Assembly: GCA_029260295.1 (NCBI GenBank)
Contig: JAJDDN010000002.1
Location: forward strand, 1 to 64,000
Source of the DNA: Phycisphaerales bacterium
GTDB lineage: Bacteria > Planctomycetota > Phycisphaerae > Phycisphaerales > UBA1924
Length of the DNA stretch: 64,000 bases
Direction of reading: 5' to 3'
Both the position numbers and the translations under genes were made by a program. Positions 7,884-18,692 of the stretch are shown here, piece after piece; position 1 is the stretch's first letter; the number at the start of each line of letters is the position of its first letter. The notes beneath the pieces are model-generated. The model saw nothing but the letters and a program-made list of their open reading frames with translations. It was not told where the DNA came from and did no database searches.

Positions 7884-8558
7884 TCAACGACGCCGGCGTG
7901 TAAATCCAATACCAGCAATCGCCAGAAGCCCAGCACCACCAGGTGTTGGTGTAATCTCGATGCCGTACCCTCCAGCAGTGCCCTGACCACCAGACCATGC
8001 GGCCAGCGGATTGTCTGCACCCGCCCCGTCAGGACCGGACACCTCGGTGCTGCTATCAAACGAGAAGATCTCTTGGTAGAAACCATCACCGAGCCCGGGA
8101 CCTTGACTAAAGCTCAAAGGCACATTGCCGCTCTCGGTAATCGCAAGGAAGTAGATCCCGGGAGGAAGAAACAGCGTCACGCCGTCGGTCGAAGGCGTGG
8201 TCAATCGTGAATCAGGACCACCAAGAATCGGATCATCATCATTCCCAAGCAGCCCGAATCCCGCGCTGTCAAAGAGCCAGAGCGAAGGATTGAAGAGCCC
8301 GGTGGTGCTCATGTTGAAGCCAAACTGAACCGCCCCACCCACATTATCACCGTTCAGGATCACCAACTCGTAGACATCTTCGCGGTCTTCACCACCGAGC
8401 GTGCCGGCGATTGTTTGAAGCGGACCTACCGAAGTCGCATCTTGTGCATCCCCGAGCGTGCTCCCCGCATCGCCATCCTCGATCCAATCCGGGCCTGCAA
8501 TCGCGGCTCCTGAAAAAGATCCTAAAATCAACGCCACACGAAGTGCTCGCATTTTCAT
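7884..8558 (-). CDS. Secreted protein with PEP-CTERM-like sorting tail
   Basis: 224 residues. ATG at 8558 follows AGGGGAG by 9 bases; an in-frame TTG at 8564 is too close to that site. A signal peptide ends near A-I-A-G. The middle resembles a bacterial pre-peptidase-like beta domain (E-D-V-Y-E-L, L-W-L-F-D, I-Y-F-L-A-I-T). The C-terminus reads P-T-P-G-G-A-G followed by a short hydrophobic stretch and R-R-R-R, the layout of PEP-CTERM exosortase substrates. Molecular function is unknown. No exosortase is visible in the window. Confidence 0.8.
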   Translation of the reverse strand: MKMRALRVALILGSFSGAAIAGPDWIEDGDAGSTLGDAQDATSVGPLQTIAGTLGGEDREDVYELVILNGDNVGGAVQFGFNMSTTGLFNPSLWLFDSAGFGLLGNDDDPILGGPDSRLTTPSTDGVTLFLPPGIYFLAITESGNVPLSFSQGPGLGDGFYQEIFSFDSSTEVSGPDGAGADNPLAAWSGGQGTAGGYGIEITPTPGGAGLLAIAGIGFTRRRR

Positions 8559-8904
8559 ATCCAAAGTCTCCCCTTGAGAGTCAAGTTAGTAGAACAGTGG
8601 AAACCTACCTCAGACTCCCCCACAGTGCCAAGAAAAACGGAACTTCCAGCGAAAGTTGCCCACTTCACACGCCTTCATACAAAACGAGTGCCTCAACAAA
8701 CTCATTTGTCACTCAATTCAATACATACAAAGCGATTGTTACAAACTTGATCTCAACATCCTTATTCAATTAATTGCTAAAAAATCAGCTGCTTAATCCA
8801 AAAATACTGGTCAATACATCGTTTTTCGTGTCTCTTTAATCTTAAGCAAGTCCCCGGAAAGTCCGGGGCATGCTGTGCGCTATGAACTCAAAGGGGAGAC
8901 TTAA
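8559..8904. other. Divergent intergenic region between two exoprotein genes
   Basis: About 345 bases, AT-richer than the flanks. It must hold promoters for both divergent exoprotein genes. Both leaders carry a very similar CTCAA(A)GGGGAGACTT block containing the Shine-Dalgarno site. A hairpin is listed separately. No convincing gene is seen; open frames here have no ribosome site and run antisense into the flanking gene. Confidence 0.5.
8852..8868 (+). promoter_or_regulatory. Leader hairpin before exoprotein gene
   Basis: CCCCGGA and TCCGGGG form a 7-base-pair stem with loop AAG. It ends 36 bases before the ATG at 8905 and about 20 bases before the Shine-Dalgarno block. No T-run follows, so it is more likely a 5' leader stem than a terminator. 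Confidence 0.4.
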
Positions 8905-9537
8905 ATGCTCAACAAATGCTCTATCGGAACACTCGTTCTTGTTGCCTCAACCGGGAGTGCACTGGCCTCCATCTCAACCTACACAAGCGACACCTCACTC
9001 ATCGGTGGCCTCACCAACTTCGCTGACTTCAACAGCCTCAACAACTTTCAATCCCTTCTCAACTACCAAGAAGACGGCCTTCAAATTAGCGCACACAGAG
9101 ACTACTTCAGCTGGAACGCTCCAGGCTTCGACGGCTCCGAAATGTTCTACGCCGGTACAGGATCACTCGAACTGATCGACATCACCCTCGTCAGCGGCGA
9201 CAACTTCGGTGATGTGGATATGCAGATTTCATCAGGCTGGTCACCAATCGTGACCGGCACCATGTATCTCTGGGCACAGCTCTATGACGACGGAAACCTC
9301 GTCGGCGAGTTTGATATCGACGCCCAGTCAGGCGACTATGTCGGATTCGCAGGCGGCGGGTACGATCAGATCCTGATCGGTAGCTATGTCACCGCTGATG
9401 TCCGCGACTCCCACGACCCAATCGCCCGCAACGCCATCGCCCTCGACAACATCAGCGCAGGCACCGTGGTCCCCGCCCCAGCAACTCTCCTGGTCCCAGC
9501 AATGGCCATGATCGGCATGCGCCGCCGCCGCAGCTAA
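8905..9537 (+). CDS. Secreted protein with PEP-CTERM-like sorting tail
   Basis: 210 residues starting at ATG 8905 after AAAGGGGAG. A signal peptide ends near S-A-L-A-S. The mature part is Asp/Gly/Ser-rich and probably all-beta; no catalytic motif is recognised. The end reads V-V-P-A-P-A-T-L-L, a hydrophobic segment and M-R-R-R-R-S, typical of PEP-CTERM proteins anchored or processed by an exosortase. It is divergent from the other sorted exoprotein at 7884-8558 and shares its leader motif, so the two may be co-regulated. Confidence 0.82.
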   Translation: MLNKCSIGTLVLVASTGSALASISTYTSDTSLIGGLTNFADFNSLNNFQSLLNYQEDGLQISAHRDYFSWNAPGFDGSEMFYAGTGSLELIDITLVSGDNFGDVDMQISSGWSPIVTGTMYLWAQLYDDGNLVGEFDIDAQSGDYVGFAGGGYDQILIGSYVTADVRDSHDPIARNAIALDNISAGTVVPAPATLLVPAMAMIGMRRRRS

Positions 9538-9697
9538 TCAGCCCATAACCACCAAACTCAGATCACCGAAACGCTCTAGCCCCCACCCAGCCCACATTGC
9601 ATGCAAATGTGCAAGTTTCTGGCACGCTTTGGCGGGCAAACCCAACTCAGATCGCTATTGTTCACGACGCTCTTGGACCTGATTGGTCCAGATCGCT

Positions 9698-9784
9698 GGT
9701 GCGATGGCTGAGCGGTTGAAGGCGCTCGACTTGAAATCGAGTGACCCTGAAAGGGGTCCGTGGGTTCGAATCCCTCTCGCACCG
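9698..9784 (+). tRNA. tRNA-Ser (anticodon UGA)
   Basis: Acceptor strands GGTGCGA and TCGCACC pair. The anticodon loop CTTGAAA gives TGA. There is a long class II variable arm, a GGTTCGAATCC T-arm and discriminator G. CCA is not encoded. Confidence 0.96.
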
Positions 9785-9864
9785 TTTCATTTGATGATCG
9801 GATCTCCCGATCCCCAGTAAGCTCGGGATTGATCCGAACAAGAAATCCCTCCAGAACGCCTCCC

Positions 9865-10293
9865 ATGACCGGCAACCCCATCGAACTCGATCTCTCCCCC
9901 TCTGGCGACTCCAACCAGCCGCTGGATCACACCATCTCCGTCGAAAAAATCCGCGAGATGGTCGAACTCTTCTATTCCCGCACTCAAAAAGACGATCTCC
10001 TCGGCCCGATCTTCGAAGAACGCGTCGCCGACTGGGACGCCCACTACGAAAAAATGACCCGCTTCTGGTCCTCAGCCACCATGCACGCCGGCACATACTC
10101 CGGACGCCCCATCGAAGCCCACAGCTTCGGTGGATTCACCAAAGCCCACTTCGACCGCTGGGTCGAAATGTTCACTGCGACCGCAAACGATGTCTTCTCA
10201 CCAAGCGATGCAAAGGTACTCACCGACCTCGCCAAAAGAATGGCCTCGACCATCGCGATGCGTATCGGCGTTGGCCGGATCGATTTCAACTAG
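9865..10293 (+). CDS. Group III truncated haemoglobin
   Basis: 142 residues from ATG 9865. The sequence follows the group III (P) truncated globin pattern: V-E-L-F-Y near the N-terminus, then F-W-S-S-A and Y-S-G-R-P-I-E-A-H, and the region F-T-K-A-H-F-D-R-W, whose His is the probable proximal haem ligand. These proteins bind haem and O2 or NO; physiological roles vary. The open frame extends upstream into the tRNA-Ser gene, so the internal ATG is preferred although no strong ribosome site precedes it. It converges on the panC-like gene with a 3-base gap. Confidence 0.85.
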   Translation: MTGNPIELDLSPSGDSNQPLDHTISVEKIREMVELFYSRTQKDDLLGPIFEERVADWDAHYEKMTRFWSSATMHAGTYSGRPIEAHSFGGFTKAHFDRWVEMFTATANDVFSPSDAKVLTDLAKRMASTIAMRIGVGRIDFN

Positions 10294-10296
10294 CAT

Positions 10297-11235
10297 TCAG
10301 ATCCGGCGGGTCTCTGCAAGCCTCACACCATCAATGATGTACGCGATGTAGAGCATCGCCGGGCTCTTCACCCATTCCAACGGCTCAAGAGTAACCGGAT
10401 CAACACACACAACCGAATCAATCTCAAGAACGCAGCTCCCGGTATCAATCGACTCAACCCCCTCCATCAACCCCGCGATCAACTCAATAATCCGCCCGCC
10501 TTCCGGCTTGCGAGCAAACCGTTCGAGCTGCCCGGCAACCCGCCCCGCCATCGCACGCTGCGTCTCATCGAGCAGCACCAGCCGCGAGCTCCAAGACACC
10601 CCATCATCCGCGCGAACCACAGGCACCTGCACAAGCTCGATCCCCGTCCCCAGCCAACGGTTCATCGCATCCAAAATAGCAACCTGCTGAATATCCTTCT
10701 GCCCAAAGTACGCCCGGCTTGGCGTCACCATCTCAAACAACAGCCGCACCACCGTCGCCACCCCGTCGAAGTGCCATGGATGTTCCGCCCCATCCATCTT
10801 CAATGCCAGCCGGCCCGGTACACGGACATAGTCCATCCCGCCATCCACCCCCACGCGATCAACTGTAAACACATCCGGGTCCCGATCCCTGCTCGCCCCG
10901 TCCTGCAAATCAAAGATCCCCGCCAGCGAATCCATGCACGGATACACCTCTTCAACGCTCGGCACAAACACCGCATCGACCCCGCACCCCTCAGCAATCT
11001 TCAGATCATCCTCAAGCCGCCTCGGATAGTTCTCGTAGGCGTTACGCCGAAACTGCAATGGATTCACAAACAGACTCAGCACCACCCGATCATTCTCAGC
11101 CCGAGCCCGATCCAGCAGATGCACATGCCCATCATGCAGACACCCCATCGTCGGCACAAGACCAACGGATCCCCCATCATCCACCGCCCGTGATGTCCAC
11201 GCCCGCATCTGAGCGGCTGATTCAATAACTTCCAT
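10297..11235 (-). CDS. panC: Pantoate--beta-alanine ligase (PanC) homologue, divergent
   Basis: 312 residues against about 280 for typical PanC. The nucleotidyl-transfer motifs are present: P-T-M-G-C-L-H-D-G-H (HIGH-type), V-N-P-L-Q-F, F-D-G-V-A-T-V-V, F-G-Q-K-D-I-Q-Q and a KMSKS-like S-W-S-S-R. PanC adenylates pantoate and joins it to beta-alanine. An extra stretch of about 25 residues precedes F-D-G-V, and the usual S-R-P-G-H-F loop is replaced by E-H-P-W-H-F, so substrate use may differ. It is the last gene of a four-gene minus-strand operon, 3 bases after the decarboxylase gene. The pantothenate role is established for the family; the variant role is inference. Confidence 0.85.
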   Translation of the reverse strand: MEVIESAAQMRAWTSRAVDDGGSVGLVPTMGCLHDGHVHLLDRARAENDRVVLSLFVNPLQFRRNAYENYPRRLEDDLKIAEGCGVDAVFVPSVEEVYPCMDSLAGIFDLQDGASRDRDPDVFTVDRVGVDGGMDYVRVPGRLALKMDGAEHPWHFDGVATVVRLLFEMVTPSRAYFGQKDIQQVAILDAMNRWLGTGIELVQVPVVRADDGVSWSSRLVLLDETQRAMAGRVAGQLERFARKPEGGRIIELIAGLMEGVESIDTGSCVLEIDSVVCVDPVTLEPLEWVKSPAMLYIAYIIDGVRLAETRRI

Positions 11236-11238
11236 CGG

Positions 11239-12525
11239 CTACTCTAGGAACTGCGGAATCGACTGCCCATCAAGCACTGACTCTACAGAAGATCTCTCCC
11301 GGATCACCGAACAATCCCCCCCAACCACCAACACCTCCGTCGGCGTCCCCCTACTCAAAAACATGCTCATCGAAGCCGTCAGCCCGTACCCCCCAGAGTT
11401 CATCATCGCCACCACATCCCCAACCTGCACCCCAGGCAGCTCCACCGAAGACCGCCACTGATCCGCCGATGTACACAAAGGCCCCCCAAGCATCACCGGA
11501 TTCGTGTCATCACTTTCCACCCGATCCGCAACAACCACCCGGTACGAGTTGGCCGTGATCGGAAGCAGCGCGTGATGGATCCCACCATCAACAATGGCGA
11601 ATGTTTCCCCACCAGACACCTTCACATCCACCACCCGCGACACATACACGCCGTATTCCGAAACCAGCACCCGCCCCGGCTCAATCATAAACCGAGTCCC
11701 TGTAAGCCCGGTCGTCTTCCGTGCCTTCAAAATAAGCTCAGACAACCCCCGCCCAAACCCATCCAGATCAAACCCATCTTCATCATCACGATGACTCACC
11801 CCAAGCCCCCCCCCAAAGTTGAGAGACTTGATCTCTACGCCGCTCGCAGTACCGATCCGGATCGCCATCTCGATCCCGAGCTCGCACGACCGCAACATCT
11901 CCCAAGCATCGAGCACCTGCGACCCAAGCATCGTGTGCAATCCGCCAAACTCAACATGCTCCAGCCCACCGATCAATCCGATCGCATCAACAACCCCCGA
12001 TTCATCAATCCCAAATTTTTGAGCACCCCCGCCCGTCCGGATCTTCCCATGCCCCGAACCCTCCGCAGCAAGATTCACCCGGATCCCAACCCGCTGAACT
12101 ACCCCAAGCCGACCGGCGACCGCATCAATCCGTTCGATTTCCCCCACCGATTCCGCATTCACCTGCCCAACCCCTGCACCAATAGCATGCTCAAGTTCCC
12201 CGTCCGTTTTCCCAGGCCCCGCAAAGAGAATTCGCGCCGGATCAAACCCGCTGGCCATCACTGCGACCAGTTCCCCGCTCGACGCGATCTCCGCACCATC
12301 AACCCCGCTCCGCTCGATCAATCGGCACACCCCAATCGCAGGATTCGCCTTGATCGAATAGTAAATTTCGACATCATCCCCGATTGATTCTTTCAACCCA
12401 GCAACGCCCGCCGCGATCGAATCCCCGCCATATAAAAACATCGGCGTCCCAAACTCCCCCGCCGCCAAGGCAACATCGACCCCATCCACAACCAGCCGAC
12501 CATCAACAACCTGAATCCCGCTCAT
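11239..12525 (-). CDS. Fold-type III PLP-dependent amino-acid decarboxylase (DAP/ornithine decarboxylase superfamily)
   Basis: 428 residues. The PLP lysine lies in Y-Y-S-I-K-A-N-P. H-T-M-L-G-S-Q, N-F-G-G-G-L-G, E-P-G-R and the C-terminal G-G-P-L-C-T-S-A-D (catalytic Cys) are all present, so it should be active. It resembles LysA, but the absence of lysine-pathway neighbours and the link with an ATP-grasp ligase recall BtrK-type decarboxylases of natural-product pathways. The gene starts with an ATGA overlap with the ATP-grasp gene, implying coupled translation. The true substrate cannot be read from sequence. Confidence 0.88.
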   Translation of the reverse strand: MSGIQVVDGRLVVDGVDVALAAGEFGTPMFLYGGDSIAAGVAGLKESIGDDVEIYYSIKANPAIGVCRLIERSGVDGAEIASSGELVAVMASGFDPARILFAGPGKTDGELEHAIGAGVGQVNAESVGEIERIDAVAGRLGVVQRVGIRVNLAAEGSGHGKIRTGGGAQKFGIDESGVVDAIGLIGGLEHVEFGGLHTMLGSQVLDAWEMLRSCELGIEMAIRIGTASGVEIKSLNFGGGLGVSHRDDEDGFDLDGFGRGLSELILKARKTTGLTGTRFMIEPGRVLVSEYGVYVSRVVDVKVSGGETFAIVDGGIHHALLPITANSYRVVVADRVESDDTNPVMLGGPLCTSADQWRSSVELPGVQVGDVVAMMNSGGYGLTASMSMFLSRGTPTEVLVVGGDCSVIRERSSVESVLDGQSIPQFLE

Positions 12526-13754
12526 TGCGCCACCCCCAGCTCCCCGCCAGTAACCCGGCTCAATAGCACATCACACACCGAGCCCACCTGATCAAGATCA
12601 TCCCCAAACACCATCGCATCAAGCACCGGCCGCCGACCAGTCGGCACCATCAAAGGCACCATCCCATAGCCAGTGGATACATCAAACATCAGCCCCTCGC
12701 CCACACCCCCAGCAACACCACCAAACCCATCAACACCCTCAACGCGGATCCCGGTCATCAACCGGAACGCCGGCTTCCCGAGCCGCTTGCTCATCAGCAG
12801 CGGGAAGGTCGAGGTATTCACCCGCGGGTTGATCTCCACAATAAACACTTCCCCGCTACTCGTCACGATAAAATCAATCCCCACAACCCCCCGGTACCCC
12901 GCCTCATACAACCACCGCCCGACACGCTCGCCCTGATCAAGAAGCTGCTCGTCGTCACCCAGTGGGCTTGGATACTCATTGCCACCAAACGCAAAGCTCT
13001 GCGTCATCTGCTGCGCCGACACACCTAGCAACTCAGGCCCAGCTTCACTGATGTCAAACTGTACATTTGGCGAGTTGGTCACCTCAAGCAACGGCTGCAA
13101 CACAAACAACCTCGACCGATCAGACCGCCCAACCCCAACCCTCAGCCGCTCAAAATCAGACTCCCCCTCTTCCCCCTCCACCTTCCACACACCATGCCCG
13201 CCGATGCTCAAATCCGACCGCACCATCACCGCGCCGTATTCGTTGAGCATGTGACGCGCCGTCGAGATCGCATCGTCCCGAGCCGCCACTGTTGTCGGGA
13301 TCGTTGCCACCCCGGCGTGACCCAGGATCGGGCACAGATTCGATTTCAGATTCAACCGGTTCAACAACGCGGCTTTAGGAGCCCGCAACCCGCCACCAAG
13401 CACCCCCGCCAGCTCCTCAACCTCGTCCCCGCCCATATACGGCTCAACAACCCACGCCTCTTTCCCCAGCTCCGACATCAACAATTCGTCAGACAGAATC
13501 CGGCCGGCAAGCGTCTCCCCTTGGCCACCAGCAACACAAAGAGTCCCAATCTCAAACCCAATCGACCCAAGAAAGTCCAGCCAATCCCCATCAGGCTCCG
13601 AATCCACCACCACCGTATCCCCAGGCCGGCTCAGCACCAACGCCCGCTGCGAAAGCATCCGCAGAGCCACCGAGCCCAATCCGTCACCCAACCCATCGCC
13701 AAGCCGGGACGCTTCGAGCGAATGAACAATCAGCCTCGACCGTGATTCACGCAC
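12522..13754 (-). CDS. ATP-grasp carboxylate-amine ligase with pre-ATP-grasp domain
   Basis: About 410 residues from GTG 13754; a TTG at 13796 would add 14 residues but overlap the upstream gene by 50 bases. The N-terminal 110 residues look like a pre-ATP-grasp domain. The ATP-binding glycine loop is S-D-L-S-I-G-G-H-G. The metal-binding end is G-I-D-F then V-E-I-N-P-R-V-N-T-S-T. Closest by eye are peptide/amino-acid ligases of the PGM1/BtrJ kind. It overlaps the upstream peptidase gene by 8 bases and the downstream decarboxylase gene by 4. It probably forms an amide or thioester on an amino acid; the substrate is unknown. Confidence 0.85.
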   Translation of the reverse strand: MRESRSRLIVHSLEASRLGDGLGDGLGSVALRMLSQRALVLSRPGDTVVVDSEPDGDWLDFLGSIGFEIGTLCVAGGQGETLAGRILSDELLMSELGKEAWVVEPYMGGDEVEELAGVLGGGLRAPKAALLNRLNLKSNLCPILGHAGVATIPTTVAARDDAISTARHMLNEYGAVMVRSDLSIGGHGVWKVEGEEGESDFERLRVGVGRSDRSRLFVLQPLLEVTNSPNVQFDISEAGPELLGVSAQQMTQSFAFGGNEYPSPLGDDEQLLDQGERVGRWLYEAGYRGVVGIDFIVTSSGEVFIVEINPRVNTSTFPLLMSKRLGKPAFRLMTGIRVEGVDGFGGVAGGVGEGLMFDVSTGYGMVPLMVPTGRRPVLDAMVFGDDLDQVGSVCDVLLSRVTGGELGVAQ

Positions 13755-14718
13755 TAGGCACACCGTGCAACGATTTCGCACAAAGTACCGCGTCAAGAAT
13801 CGCCGCCTCGATCACCTTTGAAGCCAGCACCCCCACACGATTCAGGTCGAACTCACACTCGCCCATTGAAAGCACAAACACCATGTCCCCGTCGTACTGC
13901 GTATGGCATGGCGACACCGCCCGAGCAATCCCCGCCTGCGCAATCCGCGCCACCACCGTCGCCTGCGTCTTGGTCAACTTCGCATTGGTCGCGATCACGC
14001 ACAGCGTGGTATTACTCCCAAACCCGATCGGCCGCACATCACCTGCGATCATCGCCGCTGAGGTGTCGAGCGCCGAGCCATCATCTTTACGAGCCCCCGC
14101 CACGATCTTTCCTGATCCAGAATCAACCACATCCCCAAACGCGTTAACCGCCGCGACCGCCCCGACCTTTAATCCATCATCCGTCACCCACCCCGCGCTC
14201 CCCAGCCCGCCCTTGGTTGCATGCTCATGCCCATGAACCTTCCCAACCACGGCACCAGTCCCCGCCCCGACATTCCCACGCTCAAACTCAACCCCCGCCG
14301 ATTCGCATGCTGCAAGTCCATCAGCCTTCGATGGGAACACCCCCGCATCCCCGATTCCAAGATCGAACAACGCCGCCCCGGGCACGATCGGCACCGCGCC
14401 CTGCTGGGTCACAAACCCACGATCCTGATTAAGAAAGAACTCCATCGCACCCTGAATACAACCAAGCCCCATCGCCGACCCGCCGCTCAGCATGATCCCC
14501 TGAATCGTCTCGACAAGCCCGCATGGATCCAGCAGTTCAATCTCGTGAGAAGCCGTGGCCCCACCCCGGACATCGACCCCCGCGACCGCGTCGCGGTCGC
14601 AGATGACCGCCGTGCAACCCGTCGCGCCATCCAAATCGGTCGAATGCCCAACGCGTACTCCGTCCACAAGCGTGATCGAGCGTTCCCGTGCTGTATTCGA
14701 GTTCCATTGAGCGGTCAT
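13747..14718 (-). CDS. P1 family (S58, DmpA-like) peptidase / beta-aminopeptidase
   Basis: 323 residues from ATG 14718; an in-frame ATG at 14754 would add 12. Family signatures are V-G-H-S-T-D near the N-terminus, L-S-G-G-S-A-M-G-L-G, V-G-A-G-T-G and S-N-T-T-L-C-V-I-A-T-N, where the self-cleaving N-terminal nucleophile should lie. Members hydrolyse N-terminal amino acids, often beta-amino acids, from amides and small peptides. TATTAT ends 6 bases before ATG 14718, so this may be the promoter-proximal gene of the operon with the ATP-grasp, decarboxylase and PanC-like genes. Confidence 0.88.
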   Translation of the reverse strand: MTAQWNSNTARERSITLVDGVRVGHSTDLDGATGCTAVICDRDAVAGVDVRGGATASHEIELLDPCGLVETIQGIMLSGGSAMGLGCIQGAMEFFLNQDRGFVTQQGAVPIVPGAALFDLGIGDAGVFPSKADGLAACESAGVEFERGNVGAGTGAVVGKVHGHEHATKGGLGSAGWVTDDGLKVGAVAAVNAFGDVVDSGSGKIVAGARKDDGSALDTSAAMIAGDVRPIGFGSNTTLCVIATNAKLTKTQATVVARIAQAGIARAVSPCHTQYDGDMVFVLSMGECEFDLNRVGVLASKVIEAAILDAVLCAKSLHGVPSA

Positions 14719-14759: not shown

Positions 14760-15248
14760 TCAGAACTTCATCCGCTGCGACATCGCCCGCTGCATATCCC
14801 GCTGATTCTCTCGATCCGCGATCGCGTGCCGTTTGTCGTGCTGGGCCTTGCCCTTGGCGATCCCGAGCGTGACTTTTGCGTATGCACCGGAGAAATACAG
14901 CTTCAAAGGCACCAGTGTCACCCCTTTGACATCCACCGCCCTCGCCAACCGCTCGATCTCCCGCTTTTTGGCCAGCAGCATCCGGTCCCGCTTGGGACGA
15001 TGATTAAGCGCACCAGCGGGCTGATACGGGGCGATATCGACCTGGTGCAGCGTCAGCCGGGGCGGGTCCAGATCCACCGTAATAAACCCCTCTTTGAGCG
15101 AGCAGCTCCCGTCGCGGATGCTCTTGACCTCCGACCCCTCCAGAACGATCCCGACCTCCATCGTGTCCTCGATGAAGTAATCATGCCTCGCCCGACGGTT
15201 GTCGAATGTTGGCGTATCGGTCTTGGATTTCTTGTTCTTCTTGGCCAT
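14760..15248 (-). CDS. smpB: SsrA-binding protein SmpB
   Basis: 162 residues, normal length. It has N-R-R-A-R-H-D-Y, the conserved I-V-L-E-G-S-E-V-K-S-I-R core, and a basic tail ending K-R-H-A-I-A-D-R-E-N-Q-R. SmpB binds tmRNA and brings it to stalled ribosomes for trans-translation. It is followed after about 40 bases by the P1 peptidase gene on the same strand. The tmRNA gene itself is not in the window. Confidence 0.97.
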   Translation of the reverse strand: MAKKNKKSKTDTPTFDNRRARHDYFIEDTMEVGIVLEGSEVKSIRDGSCSLKEGFITVDLDPPRLTLHQVDIAPYQPAGALNHRPKRDRMLLAKKREIERLARAVDVKGVTLVPLKLYFSGAYAKVTLGIAKGKAQHDKRHAIADRENQRDMQRAMSQRMKF

Positions 15249-15311
15249 AGCTACCCAAAGGATAGGGTACCAAACTTGAACGATCCCCCCAATCCCCTAC
15301 CATCCCCGCGT

Positions 15312-15824
15312 ATGCCCAAGTCCTTGCCCTACATTCTGCTCCTCATACTCATGACCATCCCAGGCTGCACGCACCCGGTCAACGCCCGCCTAGAACTCGG
15401 GGCCCAGTCCAGAACCCCCACATTTGAGATCAACGACAATCTCCCCCCGATCCAAGCTGCCTCTACCACCCGCTCCCGCTGGAACACCACCGTCATCATC
15501 GCCCCCATCGACGGCATCGTCCACGGCCCAACCTTCCGCCTCTACCCAGTTCCCCGAAACAACGACCACCCCAGAACCTACGGACTCCTCCCCACCGCCG
15601 ACTCGGCACTCGATCATCAAACACATTCACCCGCCGCATCCCTTCACTTCACACGCACCGAACTCGTCGCCACGATGACCAGCATCATCGATCCATTCAT
15701 GATCCATTACCATCTAACCAACGCCCACTGGAGCCCCAGACGCGTCTGGAAACGATCACGGCAGGACAACACATGGTCCTCTGGCCAACCAGCAAGCTCT
15801 ATACAGGAACCGAACCATGACTGA
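15312..15824 (+). CDS. Small putative lipoprotein, function unknown
   Basis: 170 residues from ATG 15312. The N-terminus is a lipoprotein-type signal (M-P-K-S-L, hydrophobic stretch, M-T-I-P-G-C). No known domain is recognised in the rest, which is polar and ends in a basic/Trp-containing tail. The last 8 bases overlap the rhodanese gene start, so the two are probably co-transcribed. The frame is open further upstream through smpB antisense, but only this ATG gives a signal sequence. Confidence 0.6.
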   Translation: MPKSLPYILLLILMTIPGCTHPVNARLELGAQSRTPTFEINDNLPPIQAASTTRSRWNTTVIIAPIDGIVHGPTFRLYPVPRNNDHPRTYGLLPTADSALDHQTHSPAASLHFTRTELVATMTSIIDPFMIHYHLTNAHWSPRRVWKRSRQDNTWSSGQPASSIQEPNHD

Positions 15825-16188
15825 CCTACCAAACAACCCACCAAACTACCCCTTCAACGATGCCCTCGAAATCAGCGTCGTCGAAACAAACGACAAGCAC
15901 AACGCCAAGGCCGCCGAGTTCCTGCTCATTGACATCCGCGAGCCCCACGAACTCGAAATCGCCGCGATCCCAGGCTCCACCAACATCCCGATGGGCGATC
16001 TCCCCGCCGCCCTCGCCGAGCTTGAAATCGAAGACGACACGCTGGTCGCGGTCCTCTGCCGCACCGGAAAACGCTCGCTGGATGTTGCGATGTACATGCA
16101 TGAGCAGGGATTCACCGGTGCCCGCTCGGTCGCCGGGGGCATCCACTGGTGGTCCGACCGCCTCGATTCATCACTGACCAAATATTGA
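15817..16188 (+). CDS. Rhodanese-domain sulfurtransferase
   Basis: 123 residues, a single rhodanese domain. L-L-I-D-I-R-E-P-H-E-L-E is the CH2A-type start, and the active loop is C-R-T-G-K-R-S with the persulfide-carrying Cys. It moves sulfane sulfur to an acceptor such as thiols or cyanide. The start overlaps the stop of the upstream lipoprotein gene; mqnD follows after 16 bases. Confidence 0.92.
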   Translation: MTDLPNNPPNYPFNDALEISVVETNDKHNAKAAEFLLIDIREPHELEIAAIPGSTNIPMGDLPAALAELEIEDDTLVAVLCRTGKRSLDVAMYMHEQGFTGARSVAGGIHWWSDRLDSSLTKY

Positions 16189-16204
16189 AACTCTGAAAGC
16201 CCTC

Positions 16205-17143
16205 ATGACCCAAACCGAACTCATCACACTCTCGCTCGCCCACTCGCCCGACTCCGATGACCTCGTCATGTGGTGGCCCCTGACAGGCATCACCAATCCC
16301 GATGGCTCCCAGATCGAAGGCCCCCTCGGAAAGCCTCAGCTCGATACCGGCCCCTTCCGTTTCAACCTCGTCGCCCGCGATGTCGAAGAACTCAACCAAC
16401 TCGCCATCAACCCCGGTCAATCCGACCCCTACGACATCACCGCCATCTCATGCGCCGCCTACCCGGCACTGGCTGACCGCTACCTCATCACCCGCTCCGG
16501 CGGCTCCTTCGGCGAAAACTACGGCCCTAAAGTCGTCGTCGCCGCCGATTCCAAACTCCAATCCCTCGATGATCTCACCACAACAACAACCATCGCCGTC
16601 CCAGGTGTCAACACCAGCGCCTTTCTCACCCTCAACCTTATCTCCCCCGGCTTCAAATACATCCCCATGCTCTTCTCCGAGATCCCAGACGCGGTCAAAC
16701 ACGGCAAAGCCGACGCGGGGCTCCTCATCCACGAGGCCCAGCTCACATTCCAAGACTCCGGACTCCGCCAGATCGGCGACATCGGGCAATGGTGGCACAG
16801 CGATACGCAAGGCAAGCCGCTCCCACTCGGGCTCAATGTCATCGCCCGCTCCCTCGAAACCCGCTTCGGAGTCGGCACCTGCCAGACCATCGCCGATCTC
16901 CTGACGGCATCAATCGAAACCGCCGTCCGCGAGAAGGACGCCTCCCGTCTCCACCTCCAGCTCAATAAGGGCGACCGCACCGAATGGGATGACCCGGAAC
17001 TGGTTGACAAATACCTCTCGATGTATGTCTCTGATTTGACACTCGACATGGGACCAGCCGGACGCGAAGCGATCAATCTTCTCCTGACGAGGGGAGCAGA
17101 TGCGGGATTGTGTGAATCGGTCGATTCGATCGAGATCATCTGA
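16205..17143 (+). CDS. mqnD: 1,4-dihydroxy-6-naphthoate synthase-like protein (futalosine menaquinone pathway)
   Basis: 312 residues. The N-terminus L-A-H-S-P-D-S-D-D and the periplasmic-binding-protein fold pattern (Y-D-I-T-A-I-S, F-G-E-N-Y-G-P-K-V-V-V, A-G-L-L-I-H-E-A-Q) match MqnD. MqnD cleaves cyclic de-hypoxanthine futalosine to dihydroxynaphthoate. This points to menaquinone made by the futalosine route. No other mqn gene is in the window. A related substrate-binding-like protein cannot be excluded. Confidence 0.85.
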   Translation: MTQTELITLSLAHSPDSDDLVMWWPLTGITNPDGSQIEGPLGKPQLDTGPFRFNLVARDVEELNQLAINPGQSDPYDITAISCAAYPALADRYLITRSGGSFGENYGPKVVVAADSKLQSLDDLTTTTTIAVPGVNTSAFLTLNLISPGFKYIPMLFSEIPDAVKHGKADAGLLIHEAQLTFQDSGLRQIGDIGQWWHSDTQGKPLPLGLNVIARSLETRFGVGTCQTIADLLTASIETAVREKDASRLHLQLNKGDRTEWDDPELVDKYLSMYVSDLTLDMGPAGREAINLLLTRGADAGLCESVDSIEII

Positions 17144-17204
17144 CCGACCGAACCTACGCTCTGGGTATCACCGACCATCTTCCCCGCGACTAGTGGAGAG
17201 ACCA

Positions 17205-18692
17205 ATGACCCGATCAGTGCCATTGCCAGTCTTGGATGATTCTCCCAAAGAAGAGTGCGGCGTCGTCGCAGTCTGGAACCACCCAGATGCTGTCCACCTC
17301 GGATACCTCGGGCTCTTTGCGCTCCAGCACCGAGGCCAAGAAGCCGCCGGACTCGCCGCGACCTCCAACGGCAAGATCAACTCCCAGCGCGGCCAAGGAC
17401 TCGTCTCCGATGTCCTCACCCCAGACCGACTGGCTCTGCTCGACAACTACTACAACAAAGACAAAACCTCACACCCCCAAAATCGCGGCGTCATCGGTCA
17501 CACCCGATACTCAACCGCCGGCGGCTCAGGAATCGAAAACATCCAACCCCTCGTCGAGACCATGTTCGACGGCCCAATCGCCGTCGCCCACAACGGGAAC
17601 CTCATCAACGCAGACGCATGGAAACACGAACTCTCAAAGCGGGGCCAGATCTTCCACACTTCGTCAGACACCGAGGTCATGATCCATCTCCTCGCTTCTC
17701 CTGATCAACGCGACACCCCAGATCCAACCGCCGCGATGCTCCGGAATCTGCAAGGCGCCTTCTCGCTGACCCTGCTGTTCAAAGACCGCATCGAAGCCGC
17801 CCGTGACCCGTGGGGTTTTCGCCCTCTGGTTCTCGGGAAACTCGATGATGGTTCGCCGGTCGTCGCATCCGAAACCGTCGCCCTTGATGTCATGGGCGCC
17901 GAGTTCATCCGCGAGATCGAACCGGGAGAAATTGTCACGCTTTCTGACGAAGGTGTCTCCACCCGCCGCTTCGCCGCACCGGCAACCAAGCTCGCCAGGT
18001 GCATTTTCGAGCATGTCTACTTCGCCAACCCCGCGTCCACTGTCTTTGGCCAGAATGTACTTATCAGCCGCGAGCGCTTCGGTGCCCAGCTCGCCATCGA
18101 GTCTCCTGTTGAGGCCGACATCGTTATGCCAATGCCGGACTCAGGACGCAGCGCCGCCAACGGCTTCGCCCACCAATCCGGGATCCCCTACCGCGAGGGC
18201 ATTGTCCCCAACCGCTATGTGGGCCGCACATTCATCAAACCGACCCAGGCCGAGCGTGCCGCCGCGGTCCGCCTCAAACTCAATGTTGTCTCCGAGATCG
18301 TCCAAGGCAAACGCGTCATCATCGTCGACGACTCGATCGTCCGGGGCACCACAACACGCGAAAAAATGAAACAGATCCGAGAAGCAGGTGCCAAAGAGAT
18401 CCATGTCCGCATCTCCTGCCCACCGATCACCAACCCCTGCTTCTTTGGCGTGGACTTTGCAACCCCCGATCAGCTCATCGCGCACGAACGATCCATTGAA
18501 GAAATCCGCAAGTTCCTCGGCGTCGATTCACTCCACTACCTCTCACACGACGGAATGCTCAGCGTCATGAACAACGCAGATACCGGCTACTGCACCGCCT
18601 GCTTTACGGGGGACTACCCGGTTGATCCCAGCCGCCCGCTCGCGTGCGAAGTCTCGGCCAAAGCCCAGACCCCGCTCATGAACAACGGCTGA
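17205..18692 (+). CDS. purF: Amidophosphoribosyltransferase PurF
   Basis: 495 residues from ATG 17205, after GGAGAG. The class II glutamine amidotransferase starts at the Cys of E-E-C-G-V-V-A-V, about residue 18, so a short propeptide is removed. H-R-G-Q-E and G-H-T-R-Y-S-T belong to the glutaminase half. The PRPP loop is V-I-I-V-D-D-S-I-V-R-G-T-T. It catalyses the first step of purine synthesis. Cys residues near the end (C-T-A-C, C-P-P-I-T-N-P-C) hint at a 4Fe-4S form, as in Bacillus-type PurF. Confidence 0.97.
   Translation: MTRSVPLPVLDDSPKEECGVVAVWNHPDAVHLGYLGLFALQHRGQEAAGLAATSNGKINSQRGQGLVSDVLTPDRLALLDNYYNKDKTSHPQNRGVIGHTRYSTAGGSGIENIQPLVETMFDGPIAVAHNGNLINADAWKHELSKRGQIFHTSSDTEVMIHLLASPDQRDTPDPTAAMLRNLQGAFSLTLLFKDRIEAARDPWGFRPLVLGKLDDGSPVVASETVALDVMGAEFIREIEPGEIVTLSDEGVSTRRFAAPATKLARCIFEHVYFANPASTVFGQNVLISRERFGAQLAIESPVEADIVMPMPDSGRSAANGFAHQSGIPYREGIVPNRYVGRTFIKPTQAERAAAVRLKLNVVSEIVQGKRVIIVDDSIVRGTTTREKMKQIREAGAKEIHVRISCPPITNPCFFGVDFATPDQLIAHERSIEEIRKFLGVDSLHYLSHDGMLSVMNNADTGYCTACFTGDYPVDPSRPLACEVSAKAQTPLMNNG

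Follow-up and report, generated by a model that had tools for sequence, protein, structure and literature searches.

We examined a four-gene operon from a Phycisphaerales bacterium (GenBank assembly GCA_029260295.1) that contains the genome's only match to the pantothenate synthetase gene panC. The operon lies within positions 1 to 64,000 of contig JAJDDN010000002.1, and this whole stretch is referred to here as the window. At positions 10297-14718, the operon consists of four intact open reading frames (ORFs) on the minus strand, which are as follows.

Gene 1, 13747..14718, minus strand: S58 (P1 family) amidohydrolase of the N-terminal nucleophile (Ntn) type; ATG start, 323 amino acids (aa); PF03576
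Gene 2, 12522..13754, minus strand: ATP-grasp ligase of the BtrJ/PGM1/LdmS type; GTG start, 410 aa; PreAtp-grasp and ATP-grasp_3
Gene 3, 11239..12525, minus strand: fold-III pyridoxal phosphate (PLP) decarboxylase, BtrK-like; ATG start, 428 aa; PF02784 and a BtrK match
Gene 4, 10297..11235, minus strand: divergent pantoate--beta-alanine ligase (PanC); ATG start, 312 aa; PF02569 and TIGR00018

Genes 1 and 2 overlap by 8 bases and genes 2 and 3 by 4 bases, and a gap of 3 bases (11236-11238) separates genes 3 and 4. These positions and spacings had been proposed from the letters of the sequence alone, and both the ORFs and the family matches bear them out. The Pfam matches are far above chance for gene 1 (PF03576, E = 3.3e-41), gene 3 (PF02784, 3.3e-39), and gene 4 (PF02569, 9.4e-71). 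Compared with the nearest relative (L112/L119), the dN/dS values of genes 1 to 4 are 0.10, 0.27, 0.28, and 0.31, respectively, and the four genes are alike in GC content at the three codon positions.

In gene 3, both domains of the fold-III PLP decarboxylases are present. Among solved structures, it matches BtrK best at 225 bits, compared with 188 bits for the best diaminopimelate (DAP) decarboxylase, and it falls under the lysA cut-off (TIGR01048, 286.9 versus 297.9 bits) as well as the cut-offs of six other NCBIfam models listed. LysA holds the distal end of DAP with an Arg that precedes a Pro and with the Glu of its CE..D motif. Leu321 and Thr352 take the places of these two residues in gene 3 when three LysA chains are aligned, so the CE..D of all three chains becomes CT..D, the motif of BtrK. 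The stretch CTSADQW is identical in all five cassette sequences aligned. Given the replaced residues, the score under the cut-off, and the ranking of BtrK above every LysA chain, we reject gene 3 as LysA and, at the level of sequence, regard it as BtrK-like. It is predicted to decarboxylate an acyl-bound acidic amino acid, as in the BtrJ/BtrK module.

The domain matches of gene 2 are weaker, with E values of 2.4e-9 for PF02655 and 7.5e-7 for PreAtp-grasp (38 and 30 bits). Its best NCBIfam model is that of the Asp-Met ligase LdmS, which has a cut-off of 475 bits and matches with 44. Peptide ligases lead the profile search against solved structures (8ynd, then LdmS 7r8p), with PGM1 and BesA behind carbamoyl phosphate synthetase. 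The same four ligases lead a fold search (TM ~0.5, root-mean-square deviation ~14) with a model whose mean pLDDT of 66 allows only the weak statement that amino-acid ligases head the fold matches. Gene 2 thus appears closest to the amino-acid and peptide ligases, LdmS among them. Its sole plasmid match, from Streptomyces at 27.7% identity, adjoins a type III PLP enzyme and an acyl carrier protein (ACP). BtrJ functions in butirosin side-chain synthesis, and the cassette is likened to it by that role rather than by sequence. The best solved match of gene 3 and its motif, the ligase matches of gene 2, and the plasmid neighbor together uphold the pairing of an ATP-grasp and a fold-III PLP enzyme with BtrJ/BtrK chemistry that the sequence-only reading had put forward.

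Gene 1 carries a Peptidase_S58 domain (PF03576, 142 bits), and no NCBIfam model matched it. The same reading had called it a P1 peptidase of the DmpA type, and the S58 family assignment stands. Placement with DmpA proper is unsupported: the nearest solved relatives are the nylon hydrolase 9cxr, 9yys, and ThnT, and the hypothetical D-aminopeptidase 2drh comes far behind, at 7e-5 to 1e-6. No chain named DmpA or BapA is among the solved-structure matches listed (protein E up to 10; profile E up to 1). An SNTT stretch is identical in the three complete carrier copies of gene 1, and its Asn-Thr-Thr aligns with 9cxr, 9yys, and ThnT. Gene 1 thus shares the S58 family with the ThnT and NylC-type hydrolases, to which it is likened by sequence only, and differs from them in gene context.

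Gene 4 matches Pantoate_ligase at 238 bits and exceeds the panC equivalog cut-off (TIGR00018, 225.6 versus 212.75 bits). A structural model of it reached a mean pLDDT of 64, and no conclusion here draws on that model. It retains the HxGH, FVNPxQF, KDxQQ, and SSR motifs of PanC. Six active-site residues are described for the Mycobacterium tuberculosis enzyme (MtPanC), namely, His44, His47, Asn69, Gln72, Lys160, and Gln164 (PMC5772511). All six are kept at positions 34, 37, 58, 61, 180, and 184 in four of four cassette sequences, as mapped by motif with the M. tuberculosis sequence itself outside the alignment. The Ser-Ser-Arg that contacts ATP in simulations (PMC5772511) is also present in all four. 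Changes appear elsewhere. Where 50 of 50 canonical rows have the same residue, the cassette PanCs carry R152H, A214S, and N219L and have lost the Asp after FVNPxQF, and the three that reach far enough also carry D308E and N309T. G154W affects a column kept in 47 of the 50. The canonical RPGHF, SSRN, and RL..DN accordingly read HPWHF, SSRL, and RLAET. Placed by motif, the deleted Asp falls near or in the MtPanC stretch of residues 75-88, which gates the active site according to a review (PMC7770189). An insertion of ~30 residues (roughly 101-134) is common to the four cassette PanCs. The alignment therefore confirms the insertion and altered substrate loop noticed in the sequence, although the insertion alone is not distinctive because some canonical PanCs of the class (L033, L034, and L035) also carry extra residues near this site. 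The sequence is consistent with intact pantoate activation and an acceptor side that may have changed, and given the changes at conserved positions, the use of free beta-alanine as the acceptor is uncertain.

Distribution and ancestry of the cassette

A search with gene 2 in 298 genomes of the class yielded, besides the genome of the window, 19 weak matches (26 to 47% identity, E no better than 1e-10, partial length), and a phylum sample of 392 genomes yielded nine (25 to 37%). None of the 24 family members listed has more than a weak match, including G291 of the same genus. A scan of genome contigs with a conserved gene 2 fragment identified seven loci. Three belong to Actinomycetes (39 to 45% identity over the fragment), and four are in metagenome-assembled genomes (MAGs) titled Phycisphaerales or Phycisphaeraceae (57 to 82%). 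The scan depends on exact motif matches and is not exhaustive, so more carriers may exist. Scans of viral contigs yielded no lead. The four MAG loci contain the following genes.

L112: S58, ATP-grasp, and the start of the PLP gene
L113: ATP-grasp (partial), PLP, and PanC; damaged
L114: all four genes
L115: ATP-grasp, PLP, and most of PanC

The L112 genome has another contig, with PanC and most of a PLP gene. Among the five carriers, the window and G651 (L114) have the whole set of four genes, G649 has it spread over two contigs, and the contigs of G650 and G652 end within it. The S58 gene is seen in three of the five, and its place lies beyond the contig in G650 and G652. The 4-base overlap of the ATP-grasp and PLP genes is kept in L113, L114, and L115, and L112 has the 8-base overlap. 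Genes 2 and 3 stay together at 47 to 66% identity in L113 to L115. In L114, the S58 and ATP-grasp genes are 12 bases apart and the PLP and PanC genes 8. The spacings of 12, -4, and 8 bases in L114 leave no room for a carrier protein, nor do those of the window, in agreement with the sequence-only reading that none is visible. L113 (MAG bin_ak_oxhcr2.003) has a stop inside its decarboxylase frame (505-1779) and a PanC gene (1788-2586) broken by a run of N, which reflects either low-coverage assembly or decay. The four-gene order is conserved in one clade. The expectation that relatives would share it therefore holds for four Phycisphaerae MAGs and fails for the near relatives, since the 24 family members listed do not have gene 2.

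Five other Planctomycetota (L101, L105, L106, L107, and L109) have an ATP-grasp gene distantly like gene 2, followed by a gene of ~370 to 385 aa that looks peptidase-like by eye. The ATP-grasp protein of L107 is split over two frames. This pair is a different one from the pairs of the cassette.

A PanC tree of 54 rows places the four cassette sequences in a clade of their own (100/100), which groups with rows from other families of the class (96/85). This clade lies outside the clade of 25 family rows (100/100), which represent 24 genes because one of them appears twice. From this tree we reject the idea that the cassette PanC derives from the PanC native to the family, and we infer from its position that the native panC was replaced by the cassette panC.

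The flanks were compared over 14760-18692 of the window, 9218-12779 of L102, and 82-10301 of L100. In the window, smpB (14760-15248) lies 41 bases upstream of the operon on the same strand, and smpB, a gene of a menaquinone biosynthesis family, and a purF-like gene adjoin the cassette (14760-18692). By eye, the canonical panC of relatives lacking gene 2 lies near apparent counterparts of these genes, smpB and the menaquinone-type gene in G213 and the purF-like gene in G189, as if the cassette occupied the old place of panC. The cassette PanC is followed downstream by a tRNA-Ser(TGA) gene on the opposite strand, both in the window (9697-9785, behind a globin gene) and in G651 (L114 10655-10743), where the distance is 13 bases. 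The panD-positive G189 has a tRNA-Ser(TGA) gene on the far side of gcvT, ~3 kb away from its canonical panC (L100 13402-13488). This tRNA gene may mark the entry point of the cassette. The bacterial-like globin gene of the window (9835-10290; PF01152, 26 bits) is convergent with PanC. Two further genes without a Pfam family (7884-8564 and 8905-9537) have look-alikes downstream of the G651 cassette (L114 10858-12507), and, judged by eye, the two genomes have a common downstream flank.

Pantothenate genes and a candidate route

The operon panC is the only PF02569/panC match in its genome, and each of the four other carriers likewise has no panC match apart from the cassette gene; the two matches in G650 are parts of a single gene that a run of N interrupts. 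In comparison, each of the 24 family non-carriers searched has a panC of the family clade. All 29 of these genomes, the five carriers and the 24 family members, have panB. A second, canonical panC, which the sequence-only reading had allowed for, is thus not found, and the notion of gene 4 as an extra ligase does not stand. That reading had regarded the lack of another panC as a mark of ordinary housekeeping genes. The lack is real, with panB present and panD not found, but because the PanC is foreign to the family, we regard the set as a pantothenate operon rather than as ordinary genes. The locus is very probably the pantothenate synthetase locus of these bacteria.

PanD normally supplies the beta-alanine for PanC. 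No panD (PF02261) was found in any of the five carriers, of which the genome of the window is 92% complete and the other four are of unstated completeness. The gene was found in 110 of 150 genomes of a class sample and in 15 of 25 family genomes, the genome of the window being counted in the latter and falling among the 40 class genomes without it. The chance of finding panD in none of five carriers is 0.0016 against the class and 0.017 against the family if carriers are taken as independent draws, which they are not. A PanC match is present in 145 of the same 150 class genomes although 40 lack panD.

We slightly prefer to explain the operon as a cassette for pantothenate (vitamin B5) that is complete in itself and needs no PanD, its own enzymes providing the beta-alanine moiety. 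That genes 1 to 3 make this moiety is the best single explanation of their presence, to which we assign about even chances. In favor of it are the gene content and order of the carriers, their sole and foreign panC with its adenylation residues kept, the presence of panB without a panD match, and the BtrK-type rather than LysA-type motif of gene 3. PLP decarboxylases need a free amino group, so aspartate would have to be held by a carboxylate. With the beta-carboxylate as the point of attachment, loss of the alpha-carboxyl yields a beta-alanyl group. In the first of four proposed steps, the ATP-grasp enzyme would join L-aspartate through its beta-carboxylate to an acceptor X, which could be a small amine or the thiol of a housekeeping carrier or coenzyme A (CoA). 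The BtrK-like enzyme would then remove the alpha-carboxyl of aspartyl-X, whose alpha-amino group is free for PLP, to yield beta-alanyl-X. In the third step, the S58 amidohydrolase would free beta-alanine, or pantothenate (from pantothenoyl-X) if PanC acts first, and regenerate X. Enzymes of this family cut omega-amino acid amides such as nylon oligomers and, in the case of ThnT, pantetheine. Finally, the cassette PanC would adenylate pantoate, made by way of the genome's PanB, and join it to the beta-alanine moiety. We infer aspartate as the donor, the identity of X, the order of the last two steps, and the service of genes 1 to 3 to PanC. The earlier suggestion that the set makes and trims an amide of a decarboxylated amino acid survives as a lead.

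A variant of this route, which we consider possible but doubtful, would leave no free beta-alanine in the cell. The altered PanC would pantoylate beta-alanyl-X directly, and a ThnT-like S58 enzyme would then release pantothenate. Such a reaction would account for the exchange of the native PanC for one with changes at otherwise invariant residues.

Other sources of beta-alanine and competing explanations

Several observations weigh against a self-sufficient cassette. A PanB tree of the 29 genomes, rooted at midpoint, unites the carriers in one clade (88/83) with G291 as its sister (100/99) and the panD-bearing G185 and G189 next (99/97), so the five panD absences amount to about one event. G291 has neither panD nor gene 2 and keeps a canonical panC, and eight other family members also lack both panD and the cassette ATP-grasp gene. 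Because of G291, panD was probably lost before the cassette arrived, which weakens any inference from its absence, and another source of beta-alanine probably existed once panD was gone. The cassette is likewise weakened as the cause of panD loss by G291 and the eight further members. PF00282 decarboxylases are present in 29 of the 29 genomes searched. One of them in Desulfovibrio vulgaris, DVU0867, was annotated as an aromatic decarboxylase and is reported to be an aspartate decarboxylase that complements an Escherichia coli panD mutant (PMC10102598), which makes a PF00282 source a live rival. The searches for a beta-alanine source covered PF02261 and PF00282. By way of comparison, Rhizobium etli is reported to obtain beta-alanine by uracil degradation, and replacement of panD is said to be frequent elsewhere (PMC7142369). 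The absence of a carrier protein in the cassette also counts against its self-sufficiency, although a housekeeping ACP encoded elsewhere in the genome may serve as the carrier.

The strongest competing explanation accepts gene 4 as a working pantothenate synthetase but draws its beta-alanine from elsewhere, for instance from a PF00282 enzyme acting on aspartate, and has genes 1 to 3 make and trim another decarboxylated amino-acid unit, so that they would lie in the operon but not serve PanC. One PF00282 type, which we call aromatic-type, occurs in each of the 29 genomes at 41 to 89% identity to the copy in the genome of the window. That genome carries a second copy as well, which scores best with RhbB (207 bits against a cut-off of 900) and PanP (170 bits against 606), and no curated cut-off was reached by any of the nine PF00282 proteins scanned. 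Together with the complementation by DVU0867 (PMC10102598) and the existence of panD-less relatives without gene 2, these copies keep PF00282 a possible source. Its role as a substitute that tracks panD loss is, however, unsupported in the family, since 15 panD-positive relatives also have the aromatic-type gene. Among the loci compared, which exclude further second copies in other relatives, the second type was seen in the genome of the window, G291, and G213. It was found in one of the five carriers, G652 having a different second copy. A supply from elsewhere would also account neither for the conserved position of these genes beside panC nor for the replacement of the native panC, and we regard this explanation as unlikely, though it deserves serious weight.

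A further explanation is that the altered PanC has left vitamin synthesis and that the product of the cassette is an analogue or conjugate of pantothenate, such as one built with a different omega-amino acid. The substitutions R152H, A214S, N219L, D308E, and N309T, the deleted Asp, and the insertion would suit such a change. ThnT, the S58 relative of gene 1, acts on pantetheine, which is also compatible with it. Yet the cassette panC is the sole panC match in all five carriers, which keep panB, and gene 4 passes the TIGR00018 cut-off with its pantoate and ATP residues in place. Loss of vitamin synthesis would moreover require uptake, and we consider this outcome improbable. Least probable of all is a chance neighborhood of ordinary housekeeping genes (lysA, panC, a general aminopeptidase, and an unrelated ATP-grasp gene), for which the decarboxylase's 287 bits against the lysA cut-off of 298 might speak, but gene 3 has neither of the two LysA specificity residues, shares its CT..D motif with BtrK, and matches BtrK at a higher score than any LysA chain. 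Moreover, genes 2 and 3 remain together in L113 to L115 at the identities given above although the 24 family members listed lack gene 2.

Relation to known systems

The self-supplying cassette that we favor resembles the BtrJ-BtrI-BtrK module of butirosin synthesis in that an ATP-grasp ligase adjoins a fold-III PLP decarboxylase, and BtrK is the nearest solved relative of gene 3. It differs in having no carrier protein, in its linkage to panC and an S58 hydrolase, and in its donor, which is presumably aspartate rather than glutamate. The predicted chemistry also has the logic of FlvN-FlvL-FlvO and VinN-VinL-VinO (vicenistatin), which bind aspartate or 3-methylaspartate by a carboxylate and remove the alpha-carboxyl to give a bound beta-amino acid (PMC10951976; PMC11284099). 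According to a proposal for the fluvirucin starter, FlvN, FlvL, and FlvO convert aspartate to beta-alanine while it is bound to a carrier (PMC10951976), and VinO is described as acting only after thioester formation and as needing the 3-methylaspartate thioester (PMC11284099). Those systems, likened here by description, rely on an adenylation enzyme with a stand-alone ACP, and their product enters a polyketide. In contrast, the cassette has an ATP-grasp enzyme, no ACP of its own, and a vitamin ligase. PanD, PanP, and the archaeal MfnA-type aspartate decarboxylases also supply beta-alanine for PanC but act on free aspartate in one step, and PF02261 was not found in the carriers. The cassette PanC itself departs from canonical PanC by its insertion of ~30 aa, the Asp deleted after FVNPxQF, and its separate clade. 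No description of this cassette is among the matches listed in a literature search of open-licence PMC articles, which is no proof of absence.

The source of beta-alanine in bacteria without panD has so far been answered case by case, as in Rhizobium etli (PMC7142369) and Desulfovibrio (PMC10102598). If our explanation is correct, a cassette that ligates, decarboxylates, and releases would be a further answer to how beta-alanine is supplied without PanD. It would also mean that the decarboxylation of bound amino acids, a chemistry of the antibiotic type, has been put to use in primary metabolism for the synthesis of a vitamin. Should beta-alanyl-X itself be the substrate that is pantoylated, these bacteria would possess a conjugate-based route to a universal vitamin.

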